Assembly: GCA_002762785.1 (NCBI GenBank)
Contig: PCXY01000005.1
Location: 124,001-188,000, forward strand
Direction: 5' to 3'
DNA length: 64,000 bases
Source of the DNA: Candidatus Woesearchaeota archaeon CG10_big_fil_rev_8_21_14_0_10_45_16
Lineage (GTDB): Archaea > Nanobdellota > Nanobdellia > Woesearchaeales > GW2011-AR9
The notes beneath the pieces are model-generated. The model was not told the origin of the DNA. It did no database searches and saw nothing but the letters and a program-made list of their open reading frames with translations. The position numbers were made by a program, and so were the translations under genes. Of the stretch, positions 24,071-63,563 are shown one piece after another; the stretch's first letter is position 1, and every line of letters begins with the position of its first letter.

Positions 24071-25210
24071 ATGACAGGTGAAGAATTTCTGCCTTTGGCA
24101 AAACCAGGTATCGGAGAGGAAGAGTTGAACGCCGTCGTGGAGGTTCTCAAGTCAGGATGGCTGACCACGGGGCCGAAAGTGAAAGAGTTTGAAGAGAAGA
24201 TGCAGGAATACCTGGGCTGCGCTAAAGCAGTTGGTTTAACATCCTGTACTGGCGGCTTGCATATTGCTTTAGCAGCTTTAGGCATCGGTCCCGGTGATGA
24301 AGTTATCTTACCAACGTATACTTTTGTGGCCTGCGCTCATGTCGTTGAATGGGTCGGAGCAAAACCTGTATTGGTGGATGTAGAGAAAGACACGTTCAAC
24401 ATAGATCCGGCCGCTATCGAGACAGCCATCACGCCAAGGACAAAAGCGATCATGCCAGTCCATTTTGCCGGGCATGCCTGCGACCTAGACCGGATTATGG
24501 ATATTGCTAAGAAACATGGTCTGTTTGTCGTTGAAGATGCTGCTCATGCTATTGGTACCGAATATAAAGGTCGTAAGATAGGTACTTTTGGTGATGTGAC
24601 AGCTTTCAGTTTTTATGTGACGAAGACGATAACTACGGCCGAAGGCGGCATGGTCACCACCAATGACCCAGAACTAGGACAGAAACTGAAAAGGAAGTCT
24701 TATTTCGGCGTCGATAAAGATGCCTATGGTCGTTATACGGACAAAGGAACCTGGTATTATGAAGTCATCGAATCCGGCTTCAAGTACAACATGGATAATA
24801 TCCAAGGTGCGCTGGGTGTGGAACAGCTCAAAAAATTGGAGGGATTTATCGCTAAAAGGAGAGAACTGGTAGATCATTATAATGAACTCCTGAAAGATGT
24901 TCCGGGAGTGGTAATCCCTACTGAGAAAGATTATACCAGACATTCTTACCATCTGTATCCAGTGTTGATTAATTCTGGAAGGAAAGATTTTATTGAGAAA
25001 CTGCGTGAACGGAAGATCGGGGCCAGCGTCCATTTCATCCCGCTGCATCTTCACCCCTACTATCAGAAAAAGTACGGGTATAAGAGAGGCGACTTCCCTA
25101 CGGCTGAATTCATCTATGACCGGGAAGTATCGCTGCCGTTATATCCCGGAATGACCAGGCAAGATGTCGAGTATGTGGTCGAAGCAGTGAAGGAGATTCT
25201 GTTTTCTTAA
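24071..25210 (+). CDS. DegT/DnrJ/EryC1 sugar aminotransferase
   Basis: PLP enzyme of 379 residues that aminates a keto-sugar nucleotide. The start 'LAKPGIGEEELNAV', the phosphate-binding TGGLHIAL, EDAAHA (Asp to the pyridine nitrogen) and FYVTKT with the PLP-binding Lys, followed by EGGMV, are all present. It is close to LegC/PseC/perosamine-type enzymes that transfer an amino group to C4, and could supply the amino sugar for the nonulosonic acid operon that starts 1.2 kb downstream. Exact regiochemistry cannot be read. The region after the stop is A/T-rich and convergent with the next gene. Confidence 0.92.
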   Translation: MTGEEFLPLAKPGIGEEELNAVVEVLKSGWLTTGPKVKEFEEKMQEYLGCAKAVGLTSCTGGLHIALAALGIGPGDEVILPTYTFVACAHVVEWVGAKPVLVDVEKDTFNIDPAAIETAITPRTKAIMPVHFAGHACDLDRIMDIAKKHGLFVVEDAAHAIGTEYKGRKIGTFGDVTAFSFYVTKTITTAEGGMVTTNDPELGQKLKRKSYFGVDKDAYGRYTDKGTWYYEVIESGFKYNMDNIQGALGVEQLKKLEGFIAKRRELVDHYNELLKDVPGVVIPTEKDYTRHSYHLYPVLINSGRKDFIEKLRERKIGASVHFIPLHLHPYYQKKYGYKRGDFPTAEFIYDREVSLPLYPGMTRQDVEYVVEAVKEILFS

Positions 25211-25274: not shown

Positions 25275-26372
25275 CTACTTCTTTTCCCACTTCTCATTGA
25301 TTATCTGCGAGAAGAGATCGTAGTCAGGGTCTGCCCCCTCAACGAGCGGCATGACAATCTCATCTTTGAAACGATGACCCCACCGGTTCCTCATCGGATC
25401 ATTAGGCTTCGTCGCATAAATAGTAGCTGCTCGTAAGAAGTGGTTAAGGTCCAGAGCTCTCATCGCTGCTCTCGTGGCAGTATCATCAAGATCGATAGTC
25501 CCGTCGGCAGCACGATATCCTTCAACAAGAGCTTTATGCACATCCGCCGTCCTTGCAAATGCAGGATTGGCAAACTGCCAGAAGGCATTATAAAACTCAG
25601 CTGCCGGAATACCGGCCTGCGCGAAGTTGCATTGGTCGAAACCATCTATTTCACCGGACTCATCAAGATAAATGTTCCCACGATGAGTATTCGCTAAAAC
25701 CAGAACTGGAGCAGGAAACTCCATGCCTTTGACATCTTCAAGAGATTTTCTTGCATGGACACGGACAGCATCTAACTCTGCAGGATTAAAGACTTTCTCG
25801 TGAGGATTCCAAGCCAGGTTTCCAGTAAGGAACCGTTCCAACCGTTTACTATAATGGTCGACAGAATTCTCAATCTTAAGATTAAGATCACCGTATTCTT
25901 CATCTTCTTTAAGAGGAACAACAGCCTGAACATAAGCAAATAAAGCGCCTACTTTCCGCATCAGACCAAGATATGTCGCTTGACGCTGTTCCTCAGGAAG
26001 TGAAGCAACATAATTCTGGATGTTTTCCCCTTGCAAAGCCTCTCTGAGAAGGAAGGGAGTTCCATCAGCTGCTCTTCCCAGTTTAACTGCAGCTCCCGGA
26101 ACACCAAAAGAAACAAAATAATCATAGATCTCACATTCCCTTTCCAAAGAGATAGTTCCCTGAAAGACAGATTCAACCGTCTTCTCTCCCCACTTCTTTT
26201 CAAGATCGCTTTGGAAAGTAATGTCATAACTATCATGATGATCATCACAATCGAGAACTTGCGCTCGATATTTATGATGACCTATGTCAGTAGAGACGAG
26301 TTTGATAGAATCAACTCTGAATCCGATGTGTTCAATAGCTTTTCGAGCATATTCAGGAGTTATCTTATCCAT
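25275..26372 (-). CDS. APH/choline kinase-fold protein with altered catalytic loop
   Basis: The 365 residues look like an aminoglycoside phosphotransferase-fold protein. The C-terminal half has the pattern of the catalytic loop and the metal Asp, 'LVLANTHRGNIYL' followed by 'EIDGFDQ', and a helix rich in aromatic residues. The canonical loop is HGDxxxxN; here the His and catalytic Asp are replaced by Leu and Asn (NTHRGN), so ordinary kinase chemistry may be lost. TATA-like GCTTTAAAAG lies 27 bases upstream of the ATG. It is a single gene on the opposite strand to both neighbours. Confidence in the fold is moderate; function unknown. Confidence 0.6.
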   Translation of the reverse strand: MDKITPEYARKAIEHIGFRVDSIKLVSTDIGHHKYRAQVLDCDDHHDSYDITFQSDLEKKWGEKTVESVFQGTISLERECEIYDYFVSFGVPGAAVKLGRAADGTPFLLREALQGENIQNYVASLPEEQRQATYLGLMRKVGALFAYVQAVVPLKEDEEYGDLNLKIENSVDHYSKRLERFLTGNLAWNPHEKVFNPAELDAVRVHARKSLEDVKGMEFPAPVLVLANTHRGNIYLDESGEIDGFDQCNFAQAGIPAAEFYNAFWQFANPAFARTADVHKALVEGYRAADGTIDLDDTATRAAMRALDLNHFLRAATIYATKPNDPMRNRWGHRFKDEIVMPLVEGADPDYDLFSQIINEKWEKK

Positions 26373-26460: not shown

Positions 26461-29340
26461 ATGAAATTCAGCATAGCAGGGAGAGAGATAGGTGACGACT
26501 GCCCTTGCTTTACCATCGCCGAGATCGGCATCAATTTCAACGGCAGTTTAGATACTGCTAAAAGATTGATCGATGCGGCAGTAGCTGCCGGCTGTGATGC
26601 GGCCAAGTTCCAAGCTTTCAGCGCCGACAACATCTATCCCAAGACGGCTGGTACGTTAGATTGGGAAGATAACGAAAAAAAATATTCCTATTCCATCCAC
26701 GAAAACGTCAAAAAATTTGAACTGCCCAAATCCTGGGTGCCGGAACTGAAGCGATATTGTGATGAAAAAAGGATCATCTTCTTCTCCAGCATCTGTGATG
26801 AAGAACAGGCTGATTATTATGATTCCTTAGGCGTCCCTTTGTTCAAAACCACATCGTACGCTGTCACCCATCTGCCGTTGATCGAATACATCGCCAAGAA
26901 AGGCAAGCCGATCATCATCTCCACTGGAGGATCCGATCTTCAGGAAGTGAAAGAAGCATATGAAGCAGCCAGAAAATACAACGGCAAGATCATCCTGCTG
27001 CACTGTGTGATTAAGTACGGCGCTGCTTTAGATACCATCAATATGAACGTTCTCGATACTCTGAAAACAGAATTTCCAGATGCAGTCATCGGCTATTCAG
27101 ACCATACTTACGAAGCCGTTGACACGCCGGTTGCCGCAGTGTACAAAGGAGCGAAAGTGGTGGAGAAACATATCACTCTAGACAGGAAAATGCCGGGACC
27201 TGATCATTTCTTCGCTTTGGAGCCAGCCATGTTAAAAGAGATGGTTACAGCAATAAAAGACACCGAGCGGAAGATGAATGAGGGCAAACCGATATCGATT
27301 AACCCGATCATCCTTGGTTCTGGAGAAAAGAAGATGCAGTCCAATGAAGAGTATCTTCGCAAGTTTGCCTTCCGCACCATCATAACTTCCAAAGCCATCA
27401 GCAAAGGAGAGACGATAAATCTCGACAACGTCAAGGTTCTGCGTCCTGGAAAGTTAGAGAAAGGATTAGAACCAAAAGAACTGCCCAAGATCACTGACGG
27501 TTCCTATAAAACAAAAGATAATCTTGCTGAAGGGACCGTCATCACCTGGAAAAATATTGAAGGAGGAAAAATGAACATCAACAATAAAGAACTGCAACAA
27601 GATAAAGCTTACATCATAGCTGAAATAGCGTCTGCCCATTGCGGCGACATCAACAAACTAAAACAGATCATCAAAAGCTGTGTTGACTCAGGCGTAGACG
27701 CCGTCAAGTTCCAGATGTTTGATGTCGACTACTTTGTATCAGTCTTCCATCCAAATTATCCTAATAACAAGAAAAACCAGTTCAGCAAGGAGACCTGGGA
27801 AGAGATCTTCAGTTACACCAAACAGTTCAACGTCGACGTCTGGGCAGATGTCTTCGACGAAGGCAGCGCCGATTTAGCCGAACAGCATGTGCATGGCTTC
27901 AAGCTGCATTCGACAGATGTCACCAACCCATTCATGATCAGGCACGTAGCTAAGAAAGGCAAGCCGATCATCCTGGCTGCTGGCGGAGCCACCCTCCAGG
28001 AACTGAAAAATGCGGTAAAGATGATTGAAGAAGCCGGCAACTGCCAGATCATCCTTAGCCACGGTTTCCAGGCTTATCCTACCAGTATCGAGAACGTTAA
28101 TCTTAAACGTCTCAATGTTTTGAGAGAAGAGTTTCCGCAATATACCATAGGCTACCATGACCATACTGATGCAGAGATGAACATGGCTAAAGTCATGCCT
28201 CTGGCTGCGTTCGCCTATGGAGCAAGAGTCATCGAGAAACACGTCACTGATGACCGTTCGCTCAAAGGCTTTGATTATGAATCATCTCTGAATCCAGATG
28301 AACTGAAAGAGATGGTCCAGATGTTCCAGACCTTCGAATCAAGCCTCGGCAGCGACGGATTTGAGATGTCGGAAGCTGAAATGAAATACAAAGATTACAC
28401 CAAAAGGTATGTCGTCGCCAAGAGACCGATCATGAAAAGTGAGACTATCACCAAAGAAGATCTTGCTTTCAAGAGATCGACACACGGTATCACCCCCCGA
28501 GAATATGAAAAAGTTGTCGGCAGGAAAGCAGCTAGGGACCTTAAGCAGGATGAATCCATCACCATGGCTGACATCGAGAATAAAGTGGCCATCTGCCTGG
28601 CTGTCCGGCTTAAGTCGACCAGACTGCCGAAGAAAGCTCTCCTAGAGATTGATGGACAGACGTTCATCGAACACCAGATCGATCGGATCAGGCGCTGCAA
28701 GAACGGCGAACTTATCCTCTGCACCTCAGACCTTGAAGAAGATTCTCTTTTGATAGAGATTGCCAAGCGAAAGGGCGTCAAGTGGTTTGCCGGCAGCGCA
28801 GATGATGTCATGGACAGGTTCATGAAAGCTGCTGAAAAAGAGAACGCTAATATAATCGTCAGGACCACCGGCGATAATCCTTTACAGGACCCAGAGCTGA
28901 TCGATCAGCAGATCGAATTCCATATCAAAGAAGGCGCTGATTACACCGGTATCGAAGATCTGCCGATCGGCTTCGAGGCAGAAGTCGTCAACATGTGGAC
29001 CTTGAAAGATGCTCACAGCAGGGTCAAAGACATCAAAGAGACAGAATTCATGACCTGGTTCATCAAAGATCCAAAACATTTTAAGGTGATGATCCTGCCG
29101 GTCGATGATAATCTTAAAAGAAAGTATCGGGTGACTTTAGACACGCCGGAAGACCAGAAGGTCATCAGCTCTGTGTTCGATGCTTTATACCCGCAAAATA
29201 AAACTTTCGGAGTGAAAGAAGTGGTGAATTTCTTAGACAACAATATCGAGATCGCTTCGATCAACGTTGACTATGAACAGATAAAACGGCCGCCAAAGCT
29301 TAAGGAGATGAACAATGATACAGATATCTCCAGTTATTGA
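26461..29340 (+). CDS. Nonulosonic acid synthase (NeuB x2) fused to CMP-sugar cytidylyltransferase
   Basis: Trifunctional-looking fusion of 959 residues. Residues 1-368 are a full NeuB/PseI/LegI synthase (FTIAEIGINFNG, KPIIISTGG, IGYSDHT, EKHITLDRKMPGPDH) with a C-terminal SAF/antifreeze-like domain. Residues 371-705 are a second NeuB plus SAF domain (YIIAEIASAHCGD, IGYHDHT, EKHVTDDRS), lacking the MPGPDH motif. Residues 706-959 are a SpsF/KdsB-like cytidylyltransferase (AVRLKSTRLPKKAL, RTTGDNPL). A TATA box at 26431 implies a leaderless ATG. At the first junction a GGAGG precedes an in-frame ATG at 27571, a relic of two genes or an internal start. The products would be a nonulosonic acid and its CMP form. 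Confidence 0.92.
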   Translation: MKFSIAGREIGDDCPCFTIAEIGINFNGSLDTAKRLIDAAVAAGCDAAKFQAFSADNIYPKTAGTLDWEDNEKKYSYSIHENVKKFELPKSWVPELKRYCDEKRIIFFSSICDEEQADYYDSLGVPLFKTTSYAVTHLPLIEYIAKKGKPIIISTGGSDLQEVKEAYEAARKYNGKIILLHCVIKYGAALDTINMNVLDTLKTEFPDAVIGYSDHTYEAVDTPVAAVYKGAKVVEKHITLDRKMPGPDHFFALEPAMLKEMVTAIKDTERKMNEGKPISINPIILGSGEKKMQSNEEYLRKFAFRTIITSKAISKGETINLDNVKVLRPGKLEKGLEPKELPKITDGSYKTKDNLAEGTVITWKNIEGGKMNINNKELQQDKAYIIAEIASAHCGDINKLKQIIKSCVDSGVDAVKFQMFDVDYFVSVFHPNYPNNKKNQFSKETWEEIFSYTKQFNVDVWADVFDEGSADLAEQHVHGFKLHSTDVTNPFMIRHVAKKGKPIILAAGGATLQELKNAVKMIEEAGNCQIILSHGFQAYPTSIENVNLKRLNVLREEFPQYTIGYHDHTDAEMNMAKVMPLAAFAYGARVIEKHVTDDRSLKGFDYESSLNPDELKEMVQMFQTFESSLGSDGFEMSEAEMKYKDYTKRYVVAKRPIMKSETITKEDLAFKRSTHGITPREYEKVVGRKAARDLKQDESITMADIENKVAICLAVRLKSTRLPKKALLEIDGQTFIEHQIDRIRRCKNGELILCTSDLEEDSLLIEIAKRKGVKWFAGSADDVMDRFMKAAEKENANIIVRTTGDNPLQDPELIDQQIEFHIKEGADYTGIEDLPIGFEAEVVNMWTLKDAHSRVKDIKETEFMTWFIKDPKHFKVMILPVDDNLKRKYRVTLDTPEDQKVISSVFDALYPQNKTFGVKEVVNFLDNNIEIASINVDYEQIKRPPKLKEMNNDTDISSY
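27562..27573 (+). promoter_or_regulatory. Internal Shine-Dalgarno and in-frame ATG inside NeuB fusion
   Basis: GGAGG at 27562-27566, four bases before an in-frame ATG (27571-27573) that lies exactly at the border of the first and second NeuB units. It is read through as Gly-Gly-Lys-Met in the fusion but could start a shorter protein of 589 residues. Confidence 0.6.
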
Positions 29341-29770
29341 CATTGAACAGGCTTTGCCGATCCTTTGGGAACACGACCTTAAGAACCAGAGGATAAACTT
29401 TCCAAAAGATTCACCGCGGAGACAGTTGTTTGAAGAAAGGATCAGGAGAGAGTACACAGAAGAGCCCGACGGTTTTTTCTTCATCATAGAGGTTGATAAG
29501 ATTGTTGGTTCGCTGATCCTGAAGACGAAGATTAATCACTACCGGGGGAAAAGATACGGAGATGTCAGAGCGATCTACCTTGATGAAGACAAGCGAGGAC
29601 AAGGTCACGGCAGCAGGATGCTGCAGTTTGCTGATGACCATTTCAAAAGCAAAGGCTGTTCATACGTTTTTGCCGGCATCTCTGCTCAGAATCCAGCATC
29701 AAATTCTCTCTTCACTGGATCTGGATACAGCCAGACCAGGGTCATCCTGGAAAAAGAATACGAACAATGA
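29315..29770 (+). CDS. GNAT-family N-acetyltransferase
   Basis: A 151-residue GNAT fold: the acetyl-CoA pyrophosphate loop is 'DKRGQGHGSRML' and the C-terminal part has 'NPASNSLFTGSGY'. An AAGGAG Shine-Dalgarno site lies 7 bases before the ATG, which overlaps the synthase gene by 26 bases. Between NeuB and a PseG-like hydrolase it probably acetylates the 4-amino group of the nonulosonic acid precursor, as PseH or LegH do (inference from context). A protein N-acetyltransferase is possible but less likely here. Confidence 0.87.
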   Translation: MIQISPVIDIEQALPILWEHDLKNQRINFPKDSPRRQLFEERIRREYTEEPDGFFFIIEVDKIVGSLILKTKINHYRGKRYGDVRAIYLDEDKRGQGHGSRMLQFADDHFKSKGCSYVFAGISAQNPASNSLFTGSGYSQTRVILEKEYEQ

Positions 29771-30789
29771 AAACGATCGCAATCCGTACGGACGGCAGCC
29801 AAAGCTATGGGATGGGGCATGTGCAAAATGCCCTTACTTTGGCCGCTTACCTCAAGAGATATGATGACTTCTCTATCTATTTTGTCATGATCTTTCCTGA
29901 AGGAATGGAAAAAGTACGGCAGCATGGTTATGACACCGAAACCTTGCGTAATGATGATCTTAAAGAACTGCTGCAGGTACTAAAGCGTAGAAAGACTGAT
30001 CTTTTGATAACAGATCTGCTAGAAATAAAAGAAGATTATTCAGAAGATCTTCAAAAAGCCAATATCAAAAGTGTCTGCTGTGATATTCTAGGCAGATCGA
30101 GACTGAAAGCAGATTTGCTGTTCAATAGGACGGTGATCGAGAAACGCTGGGAGAACTACGATCGAAACTCCAAGACCAAATTCTTTCTTGGGACAAGATA
30201 TGTTGTCCTTAAGCCAGAATATGGCCTAATCTGTTCACAGACAAGAAACATCAGCCAGACAGCAAAAAACGTGTTAATCACGATGGGCGGCGGCGATGAG
30301 TTCAATATCACCACTAGAGTTGTCAGAATACTCAAAGGTTTTCCTGATCTTTCGTTGACGGTCGTCCTTGGTTCTGCATTTGCAGATGAGGATACATTAA
30401 GAGAAGCCGTAAAAGGCACTTCCATCAAGATCATCAAAGATGTTCCTTCCTTAGCAAAACTTTTCTTAGAAAATGATATTGTCATCGGCGCTGGTGGCAG
30501 CACTTTATACGAATTAGCCTGTACTGGAACACCGGCCCTAATAATACCTATGAACGACCATCAGGTTGAAAACGCCGAAGCCTTTGCAGCAAAAGGCAGC
30601 GTCATCAGCACCAGGATCCACTCAGAAGCGACCGATAAAGAGATTGGAGAAAGCTTCATAAAGATAGCTGATAACAGCGTCCTGCGAAAGATGATGAGCA
30701 ATAAAGGGAAAAAAATTACAGATGGAAAAGGTGCAGAAAGGGTCGCTGAGATAATACAGCGATTCGCTTCCAGTGAGGAAAATGTCTAA
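29767..30789 (+). CDS. PseG/SpsG-like UDP-sugar hydrolase
   Basis: GT-B-like protein of 340 residues with the PseG N-terminal signature RTDGSQSYGMGH, whose His corresponds to the general base of PseG, and a C-terminal MurG-like half ('GGGDEFN', 'GAGGSTLYELACTGTPAL'). PseG releases UDP from the acetylated amino sugar to give the free sugar used by NeuB. The Arg that often follows the His in GHVMR is Asn here (GHVQN). ATGA overlap with the GNAT gene; consistent with a pseudaminic or legionaminic acid-type pathway. Confidence 0.88.
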   Translation: MKTIAIRTDGSQSYGMGHVQNALTLAAYLKRYDDFSIYFVMIFPEGMEKVRQHGYDTETLRNDDLKELLQVLKRRKTDLLITDLLEIKEDYSEDLQKANIKSVCCDILGRSRLKADLLFNRTVIEKRWENYDRNSKTKFFLGTRYVVLKPEYGLICSQTRNISQTAKNVLITMGGGDEFNITTRVVRILKGFPDLSLTVVLGSAFADEDTLREAVKGTSIKIIKDVPSLAKLFLENDIVIGAGGSTLYELACTGTPALIIPMNDHQVENAEAFAAKGSVISTRIHSEATDKEIGESFIKIADNSVLRKMMSNKGKKITDGKGAERVAEIIQRFASSEENV

Positions 30790-62240: not shown

Positions 62241-63563
62241 ATGGGAAAAGTCGTCTGGTTTACGGGGTTGAGCGGTTCTGGAAAGACCACCATCGCCCTC
62301 AGATTAAAGAAAGAACTAGAGAAGCAGGACAAGACCGTCCACATCCTTGACGGCGACGTGGTGAGGAACGAGCTCCATAAAGACCTCGGCTTCTCCCGGG
62401 AAGACATCAGAGAGAACAACCGACTGATAGCCTTGCTGGCAAAGAAGTATCAAGATTCTTCAGATTTTGTTTTGGTCCCTATCATCTCACCATACCGGGA
62501 AGACCGAGCCATGGCCAGATCGATTATCGGCCCCAGTTTCATGGAGCTCTATGTCAACTGTTCTTTAGACGGCTGCATCAAGAGAGATGTCAAAGGCTTG
62601 TATCAGAAGGCTCTAGCCGGCGAGATCGACAATTTAATCGGCGTGGCTGACTCGAATCCGTATGAAGCGCCGGAAAATCCTGAACTGGAGATCAATACGG
62701 AAAAGAATGATCTTGACACTAGCATCGACCTGATCAGCAGCAGATTGCTGAAAGATAAGCTGCCTTTTGAAACTTCTTTCCCCGAGATAAAGATGGCGAT
62801 AGAAGGCATCCTGGAAGCGGGAAAAGCAGTCATGGAGATCTATAGTCGTGATTACGATATCTCCAGAGATAAAGATGGAGAACCGACCACAGAAGCCGAT
62901 AAGAAAAGCAATCAGATCCTGATGAACGCACTGGGAAAGACCGGCCACATGATCCTCTCAGAAGAAGATGTCAATGATGAAAAAAGATTAGGAGAAGAAT
63001 ATGTCTGGATCGTCGATCCCATCGATGGCACTTCTGATTTTGTCAACAAGACCGGCGAGTTCACGATCATGGTAGGGCTGGTAAAAGATCACGTGCCGGT
63101 GCTCGGTCTGGTCCTGTGGCCTCCCCAGAAGATCCTATTCATCGGTGAGAAAGGCAAAGGAGCGTATAAGCTCGAGAAAGGAGAATGGCAGAAGATACGG
63201 TGCAGCAGTAAGACCGATCTTAAAGAATGCCGCCTGATGAGGAGCCGACACCATCTCTCAGAGGAGGAACAACGGGTCGCTTCAGAACTCGGCATCACCA
63301 TGGCCGCGGCCAGAGGCAGCAGCCTGAAAGCCATGGATATCGCTCAAGGTTCAGGAGACCTCTATTTCACATTAACTTCAAAGATCAAGCAGTGGGATAC
63401 CTGCGCTTCATACTGCATCCTTACCGAAGCTGGAGGAAAGATGACAGATATCTTTGGAAATGCTCTTCAATATAATACTACTAAAGTAAACCACGAAAAT
63501 GGGATACTGGCGACAAACGGGATTGTCCATGAAAACTTTATAAAAAACTGCCAGAGACATTGA
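62241..63563 (+). CDS. APS kinase-PAP phosphatase (CysC-CysQ) fusion
   Basis: A 440-residue fusion. Residues 1-175 are adenylylsulfate kinase: GLSGSGKT (Walker A), LDGDVVRNELHKDLGFS, 'REDIRENNRL' and 'PIISPYREDR', all family hallmarks. Residues 180-435 are a Mg-dependent, Li-sensitive-type 3'(2'),5'-bisphosphate nucleotidase (CysQ): LSEEDV, WIVDPIDGTSDFV and 'QWDTCASYCILTEAGG', with all metal ligands. It makes PAPS from APS and clears the PAP left by sulfotransferases. TATA box TTTTTAAAGC at 62211-62220 gives a leaderless ATG at 62241; an out-of-frame ATG at 62234 is not used. Confidence 0.94.
   Translation: MGKVVWFTGLSGSGKTTIALRLKKELEKQDKTVHILDGDVVRNELHKDLGFSREDIRENNRLIALLAKKYQDSSDFVLVPIISPYREDRAMARSIIGPSFMELYVNCSLDGCIKRDVKGLYQKALAGEIDNLIGVADSNPYEAPENPELEINTEKNDLDTSIDLISSRLLKDKLPFETSFPEIKMAIEGILEAGKAVMEIYSRDYDISRDKDGEPTTEADKKSNQILMNALGKTGHMILSEEDVNDEKRLGEEYVWIVDPIDGTSDFVNKTGEFTIMVGLVKDHVPVLGLVLWPPQKILFIGEKGKGAYKLEKGEWQKIRCSSKTDLKECRLMRSRHHLSEEEQRVASELGITMAAARGSSLKAMDIAQGSGDLYFTLTSKIKQWDTCASYCILTEAGGKMTDIFGNALQYNTTKVNHENGILATNGIVHENFIKNCQRH

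Follow-up and report, generated by a model that had tools for sequence, protein, structure and literature searches.

The 64,000-nucleotide stretch of archaeal DNA analyzed here (the window) carries a gene in which two NeuB-type synthases and a cytidylyltransferase are read in a single frame, and at the joint between the two synthases a Shine–Dalgarno (SD)-like sequence is followed by an in-frame ATG. The question raised by this locus is whether that site is only the remnant of a former gene start, or a start that ribosomes still use to produce the second synthase and the cytidylyltransferase as a separate protein.

The fused gene and its two NeuB paralogues

The host genome comprises 1.18 Mb in 6 contigs with 98% completeness and was identified as archaeal by its Rpb5 protein. 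Archaeal 16S rRNA was found in relatives, but despite the completeness of the host assembly no 16S rRNA was found in it with either bacterial or archaeal models. Judged by their sequences, the genes around the fusion (Table 1) resemble an sps/pse-type operon for nonulosonic acids (sialic-acid-like sugars), here in an archaeon with a small genome. As in the Bacillus subtilis sps cluster (SpsC, D, E, F, G), an aminotransferase, a GNAT protein, a NeuB-type synthase, an SpsF-like cytidylyltransferase and a PseG-like hydrolase are clustered, and legionaminic acid on B. subtilis spores depends on these sps counterparts (PMC7439481). Unlike the B. subtilis cluster, the window has an extra NeuB paralogue, and NeuB1, NeuB2 and the cytidylyltransferase form one polypeptide. 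The NeuB1 start lacks an SD, and the TATA box upstream of it is probably the promoter of a leaderless transcript starting at NeuB1; SDs are present at the starts of the SDR, aminotransferase and GNAT genes of the operon. A phosphotransferase-like open reading frame (ORF; 25275–26372, minus strand) lies between the aminotransferase and NeuB1, which are fused to one another in the related genome G001; this ORF has a weak relative in genome G012 and no NCBIfam match.

Table 1. Features of the NeuB locus, in window coordinates
Feature	Coordinates	Strand	Remarks
PseC/SpsC-like aminotransferase	24071..25210	+	Fused to the NeuB1 N terminus in G001
TATA box TATATAAA	26432..26439	+	29 nt before the NeuB1 ATG
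Fused gene NeuB1-SAF-NeuB2-SAF-cytidylyltransferase	26461..29340	+	959 aa; same fusion in G001
NeuB1 + SAF, SpsE-like synthase	26461..27561	+	Residues 1–367
AAGGAGG, SD-like site within coding sequence	27560..27566	+	Read as Glu-Gly-Gly-Lys with its neighbours
Internal in-frame ATG, Met371	27571..27573	+	Homologous to starts of stand-alone NeuB2 genes
NeuB2 + SAF, separate NeuB paralogue clade	27571..28578	+	Residues 371–706
Possible separate product NeuB2-SAF-cytidylyltransferase	27571..29340	+	1770 nt including stop, 589 aa; G068 counterpart 587 aa
SpsF-like cytidylyltransferase domain	28579..29337	+	Residues 707–959
GNAT acetyltransferase, SpsD/PseH position	29315..29770	+	AAGGAG at its own start
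PseG/SpsG-like UDP-sugar hydrolase	29767..30789	+	TIGR03590 above cut-off

Pfam analysis of the fusion returned two stretches of PF03102 (NeuB), two of PF08666 (SAF) and CTP_transf_3 at residues 715–898; alignment places the end of the first SAF domain near residue 366 and the start of the conserved core of the second NeuB near residue 383. The best match of NeuB1 among solved structures was SpsE (1vli, E = 3e-91). Both halves combine a NeuB TIM barrel with a C-terminal SAF domain and carry the active-site residues, as in NeuB, SpsE and PseI. Taking Neisseria meningitidis NeuB as reference (E25, K53/Q55, K129, Y186, H215, E234, H236 and the capping R314), the equivalents in NeuB2 are E18, K46/Q48, K111, Y169, H198, E222, H224 and R302, with differences at two ligand contacts (N184 to Gln and S213 to His), and those in NeuB1 are E21, K49/Q51, H215, E235, H237 and R328. 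In the numbering of the fusion, the catalytic Arg314 of the reference aligns with Arg328 (NeuB1) and Arg672 (NeuB2). NeuB2 alone scored below the equivalog cut-offs of TIGR03569 (253 versus 399.65 bits) and TIGR03586 (PseI; 204 versus 340.25 bits), and the whole fusion passed both (532 and 422.7 bits) as the sum of two matched stretches. From the residues retained, both synthases are probably active.

In a tree of 66 rows, NeuB2 fell in a group of 12 rows with 99% SH-aLRT support, together with proteins of G001, G068, G112, G118, G409, G123 and G012 and with genes of Blastocatellia, Dehalococcoidia, Flavobacteriales and Thermoplasmatota genomes. NeuB1 was placed elsewhere, next to the NeuB1 of G001 and then that of G123. 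A tandem duplication was rejected because the two halves belong to separate, strongly supported clades, and they are instead ancient, distinct paralogues. In the surrounding regions that were read, 11 of the 12 members of the NeuB2 group were accompanied by, or fused to, a further NeuB of the ordinary kind, the exception being G409. Genes of the NeuB2 clade clustered with an ordinary NeuB and a cytidylyltransferase were recorded at L061, L062, L063, L064, L066, L079, L081, L085 and L089.

The NeuB1–NeuB2 joint and the start signals of this genome

The original prediction was of a GGAGG and an in-frame ATG at the NeuB–NeuB joint, directly after the first SAF domain, with the SD translated as Gly-Gly-Lys and with an internal NeuB-cytidylyltransferase ORF of 589 residues; each of these points was borne out exactly. 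The joint reads ACC TGG AAA AAT ATT GAA GGA GGA AAA ATG AAC ATC, in which GAA occupies 27559–27561 and GGAGG 27562–27566, and its translation runs Glu-Gly-Gly-Lys-Met. The spacer between AAGGAGG and the ATG is 4 nt, and residues 331–418 contain no other in-frame start codon. The site thus has the sequence pattern of an internal start, that is, a start codon with an SD inside a longer ORF. An internal promoter giving a leaderless start at 27571 was also considered and rejected, as there is no TATA-like hexamer at about −36 to −21.

How genes begin in this genome was assessed in a sample of 464 kb (the window plus 20 further stretches) containing 1775 internal in-frame ATGs. Because gene calling simply took the longest ORF, the rates are approximate: a TATA-like hexamer starting at −30 to −28 was present before ~ 60% of first genes, 10% of operon-internal genes and < 1% of internal ATGs, and anti-SD pairing of −6 kcal/mol or lower was predicted for 37% of non-leaderless operon-internal starts, 5% of TATA-led first genes and 10% of internal ATGs. 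The first of these figures indicates that the genome is mainly leaderless, and the second that starts inside operons are enriched in SD pairing. Taken with the SDs of the operon neighbours, this enrichment makes the NeuB2 site one of the type that this genome uses inside operons. The anti-SD GGATCACCTCCT (CCTCC) ends the 16S rRNA of several relatives, G001 included.

An SD match of at least 7 nt preceded 2 of the 1775 internal ATGs, and an anti-SD duplex as good as that of the joint (−10.0 kcal/mol) was found at 11 of the 1775; since the site was picked by eye, both figures are counts of rarity and not p-values. Among those 11, the joint site alone was also unstructured, with a minimum free energy (MFE) of −1.3, whereas internal ATGs average −10.0 and operon starts −5.5. 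The AAGGAGG–ATG at the joint is something other than ordinary coding noise. A few more in-frame ATGs inside genes are closely preceded by GGAGG, at 63441 of the window and in L159, L163, L169 and L170, with more structured RNA where listed.

Relatives and the history of the fusion

Relatives were sought in 49 genomes of the family and in several hundred genomes each sampled from the class and the phylum, and among these NeuB1, NeuB2 and the cytidylyltransferase were found in one frame only in the window and in G001. No NeuB-NeuB-cytidylyltransferase fusion was present at the 80 loci of a contig alignment scan, and neither a single-protein scan of genome contigs nor a scan of viral contigs gave any relatives. 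G001, which belongs to another genus and is 67% identical, encodes a 1378-aa aminotransferase-NeuB1-NeuB2-cytidylyltransferase (L065, 8543–12679) with the frame open throughout, and its domain order and neighbouring genes are as in the window. Unlike the window, G001 is fused further upstream and its NeuB1–NeuB2 joint is 14 residues longer, without an in-frame ATG, GTG or TTG. The start at the joint is therefore not conserved in the other fused relative (n = 1), which implies that the fusion does not need an internal start and that the signal belongs to this genome rather than to the fusion as such. Note also that the startless joint of G001 is A-rich, so that composition by itself is weak evidence, and it is the SD and its position that carry weight. 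The A-richness and weak structure at the joint may stem from a linker rich in Lys and Asn, and not from a start.

In other relatives the parts are separate. G068 has a stand-alone gene for a protein of 587 aa (L061, 5850–7613) with the NeuB2 and cytidylyltransferase domains of the window and the same seamless joint, and its N terminus, MNIK, falls on the internal MNIN of the window; unlike in the window, the gene is not fused to NeuB1 and has TTTATA at −30 instead of an SD. G123 encodes the aminotransferase, NeuB2, cytidylyltransferase and NeuB1 in four separate, closely packed genes. In G012, a NeuB is followed after 16 nt (measured to the first possible start) by NeuB2, which overlaps the cytidylyltransferase by 4 nt, though this first NeuB is not the orthologous NeuB1; G012 NeuB2 has an ATG at the position of the internal Met, plus an upstream TTG. 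In G112 and G118, the cytidylyltransferase precedes NeuB2. Stand-alone NeuB2 proteins start at the position of the internal Met or within ~ 3 residues of it.

As expected of a gene fusion, the components thus occur apart in relatives, and none is the closest relative of another. The NeuB2–cytidylyltransferase joint has no linker and is of equal length and layout in the window, G001 and G068, which marks it as the older fusion. The NeuB1–NeuB2 joint, differing by 14 residues between the window and G001, is younger, or was made twice. The original prediction held that two genes were fused by loss of one stop codon and suggested a search for relatives in which a stop still separates them. That the genes were formerly separate is upheld by the split relatives (G012, G123 and G068) and by the homologous starts, but none of the genomes searched had NeuB2-cytidylyltransferase immediately downstream of the orthologous NeuB1 and separated from it by a stop. 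A single substitution would turn any of the four codons from Ile366 to Met371 (GAA, GGA, GGA and AAA) into a stop; the sequence therefore does not reveal the route, of which loss of a single stop codon is one possibility.

A probable former gene start and its possible use

The sequence comparisons give good support to the interpretation of AAGGAGG–ATG (27560–27573) as the start region of a former NeuB2-cytidylyltransferase gene, retained at the fusion joint. That the internal start still works is the reading we favour, with a probability of roughly 55%.

One alternative is that SD and ATG are only left over from a recent fusion and now encode a Glu-Gly-Gly-Lys-Met linker, the 959-aa protein alone being of importance. 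We regard this as possible, though on balance doubtful. It fits the startless joints of G001, not only between NeuB1 and NeuB2 but also between the aminotransferase and NeuB1. However, the motif is intact to 7 nt, well spaced and placed in open RNA, and a purely dead site would consequently have to be young. Moreover, if the fusion predates the split from G001 (~ 67% identity), a neutral remnant should have decayed, an argument that falls if the fusions in the window and G001 are independent; two fused sequences were available for judging selection on the SD.

It could also be that there is no fusion in the living cell, and that a base error in the assembly or a mixed strain hides a stop at 27559–27570 between two coupled genes with a classic SD. 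The closeness of all four codons to a stop, and a layout otherwise like that of a normal gene junction, would agree with this, but G001, which belongs to another genus, has the same fusion with its frame open, and single-base consensus errors in assemblies are rare, which makes a hidden stop improbable. Least credible is that a Gly-Gly-Lys-Met linker spells an SD and a start by chance: ~ 0.6% of internal ATGs in the genome have an equal anti-SD energy, but only this one is also unstructured, and its position coincides exactly with the homologous start in stand-alone NeuB2 genes.

For a start that still works, the following course of events is proposed. NeuB2 and the cytidylyltransferase would already have been one gene when NeuB1 joined its front, and translation would now pass through the former start region, which would act as a linker. 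The 959-aa fusion would come from ribosomes that load at the 5′ end of the leaderless mRNA, and 30S subunits binding the internal SD would produce some 589-aa NeuB2-cytidylyltransferase, so that two routes of initiation on one mRNA would give the fused pair and extra NeuB2-cytidylyltransferase. More tentatively, this would be a fusion caught half-way, in which the ratio of the 959-aa and 589-aa products is set by leaderless versus SD initiation. N. meningitidis NeuB forms a dimer in which the active site of a subunit is capped by the C-terminal antifreeze-like (SAF) domain of its partner (PMC6795526). Since both barrels and both capping Arg residues are kept in the fusion, our guess for a last step is that its two synthase halves may pair within the chain, as a NeuB1:NeuB2 pseudo-dimer.

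A known archaeal parallel is Cas11b of Haloferax volcanii, which is made from an internal Met of cas8b, as supported by mass spectrometry and mutation of that Met (PMC11899642). Like Cas8b/Cas11b, the window has an in-frame internal ATG with an SD-like site in an archaeal gene, and a C-terminal product that is here only predicted. Unlike Cas11b, the internal ORF of the window corresponds to an entire former gene and encodes two enzyme domains. If the site is indeed used, it would be a second case of such a start, in an uncultured lineage and at a dateable gene-fusion joint, and would show separate operon genes becoming one protein while both products are kept. The locus further suggests that NeuB1 and NeuB2 occur as a pair with a single cytidylyltransferase in both archaea and bacteria. 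The clusters of NeuB2, ordinary NeuB and cytidylyltransferase, which are present in archaea and in bacteria of several phyla, perhaps represent a hetero-synthase or two-sugar module.

Further fusions within the same pathway were observed. G361 encodes an SDR-aminotransferase-NeuB protein of 1118 aa (L069, 5928–9284, minus strand), and G001 an RmlD-like-SDR protein of 642 aa (L065, 6497–8425), the counterparts of which in the window are two genes with a 4-nt overlap.
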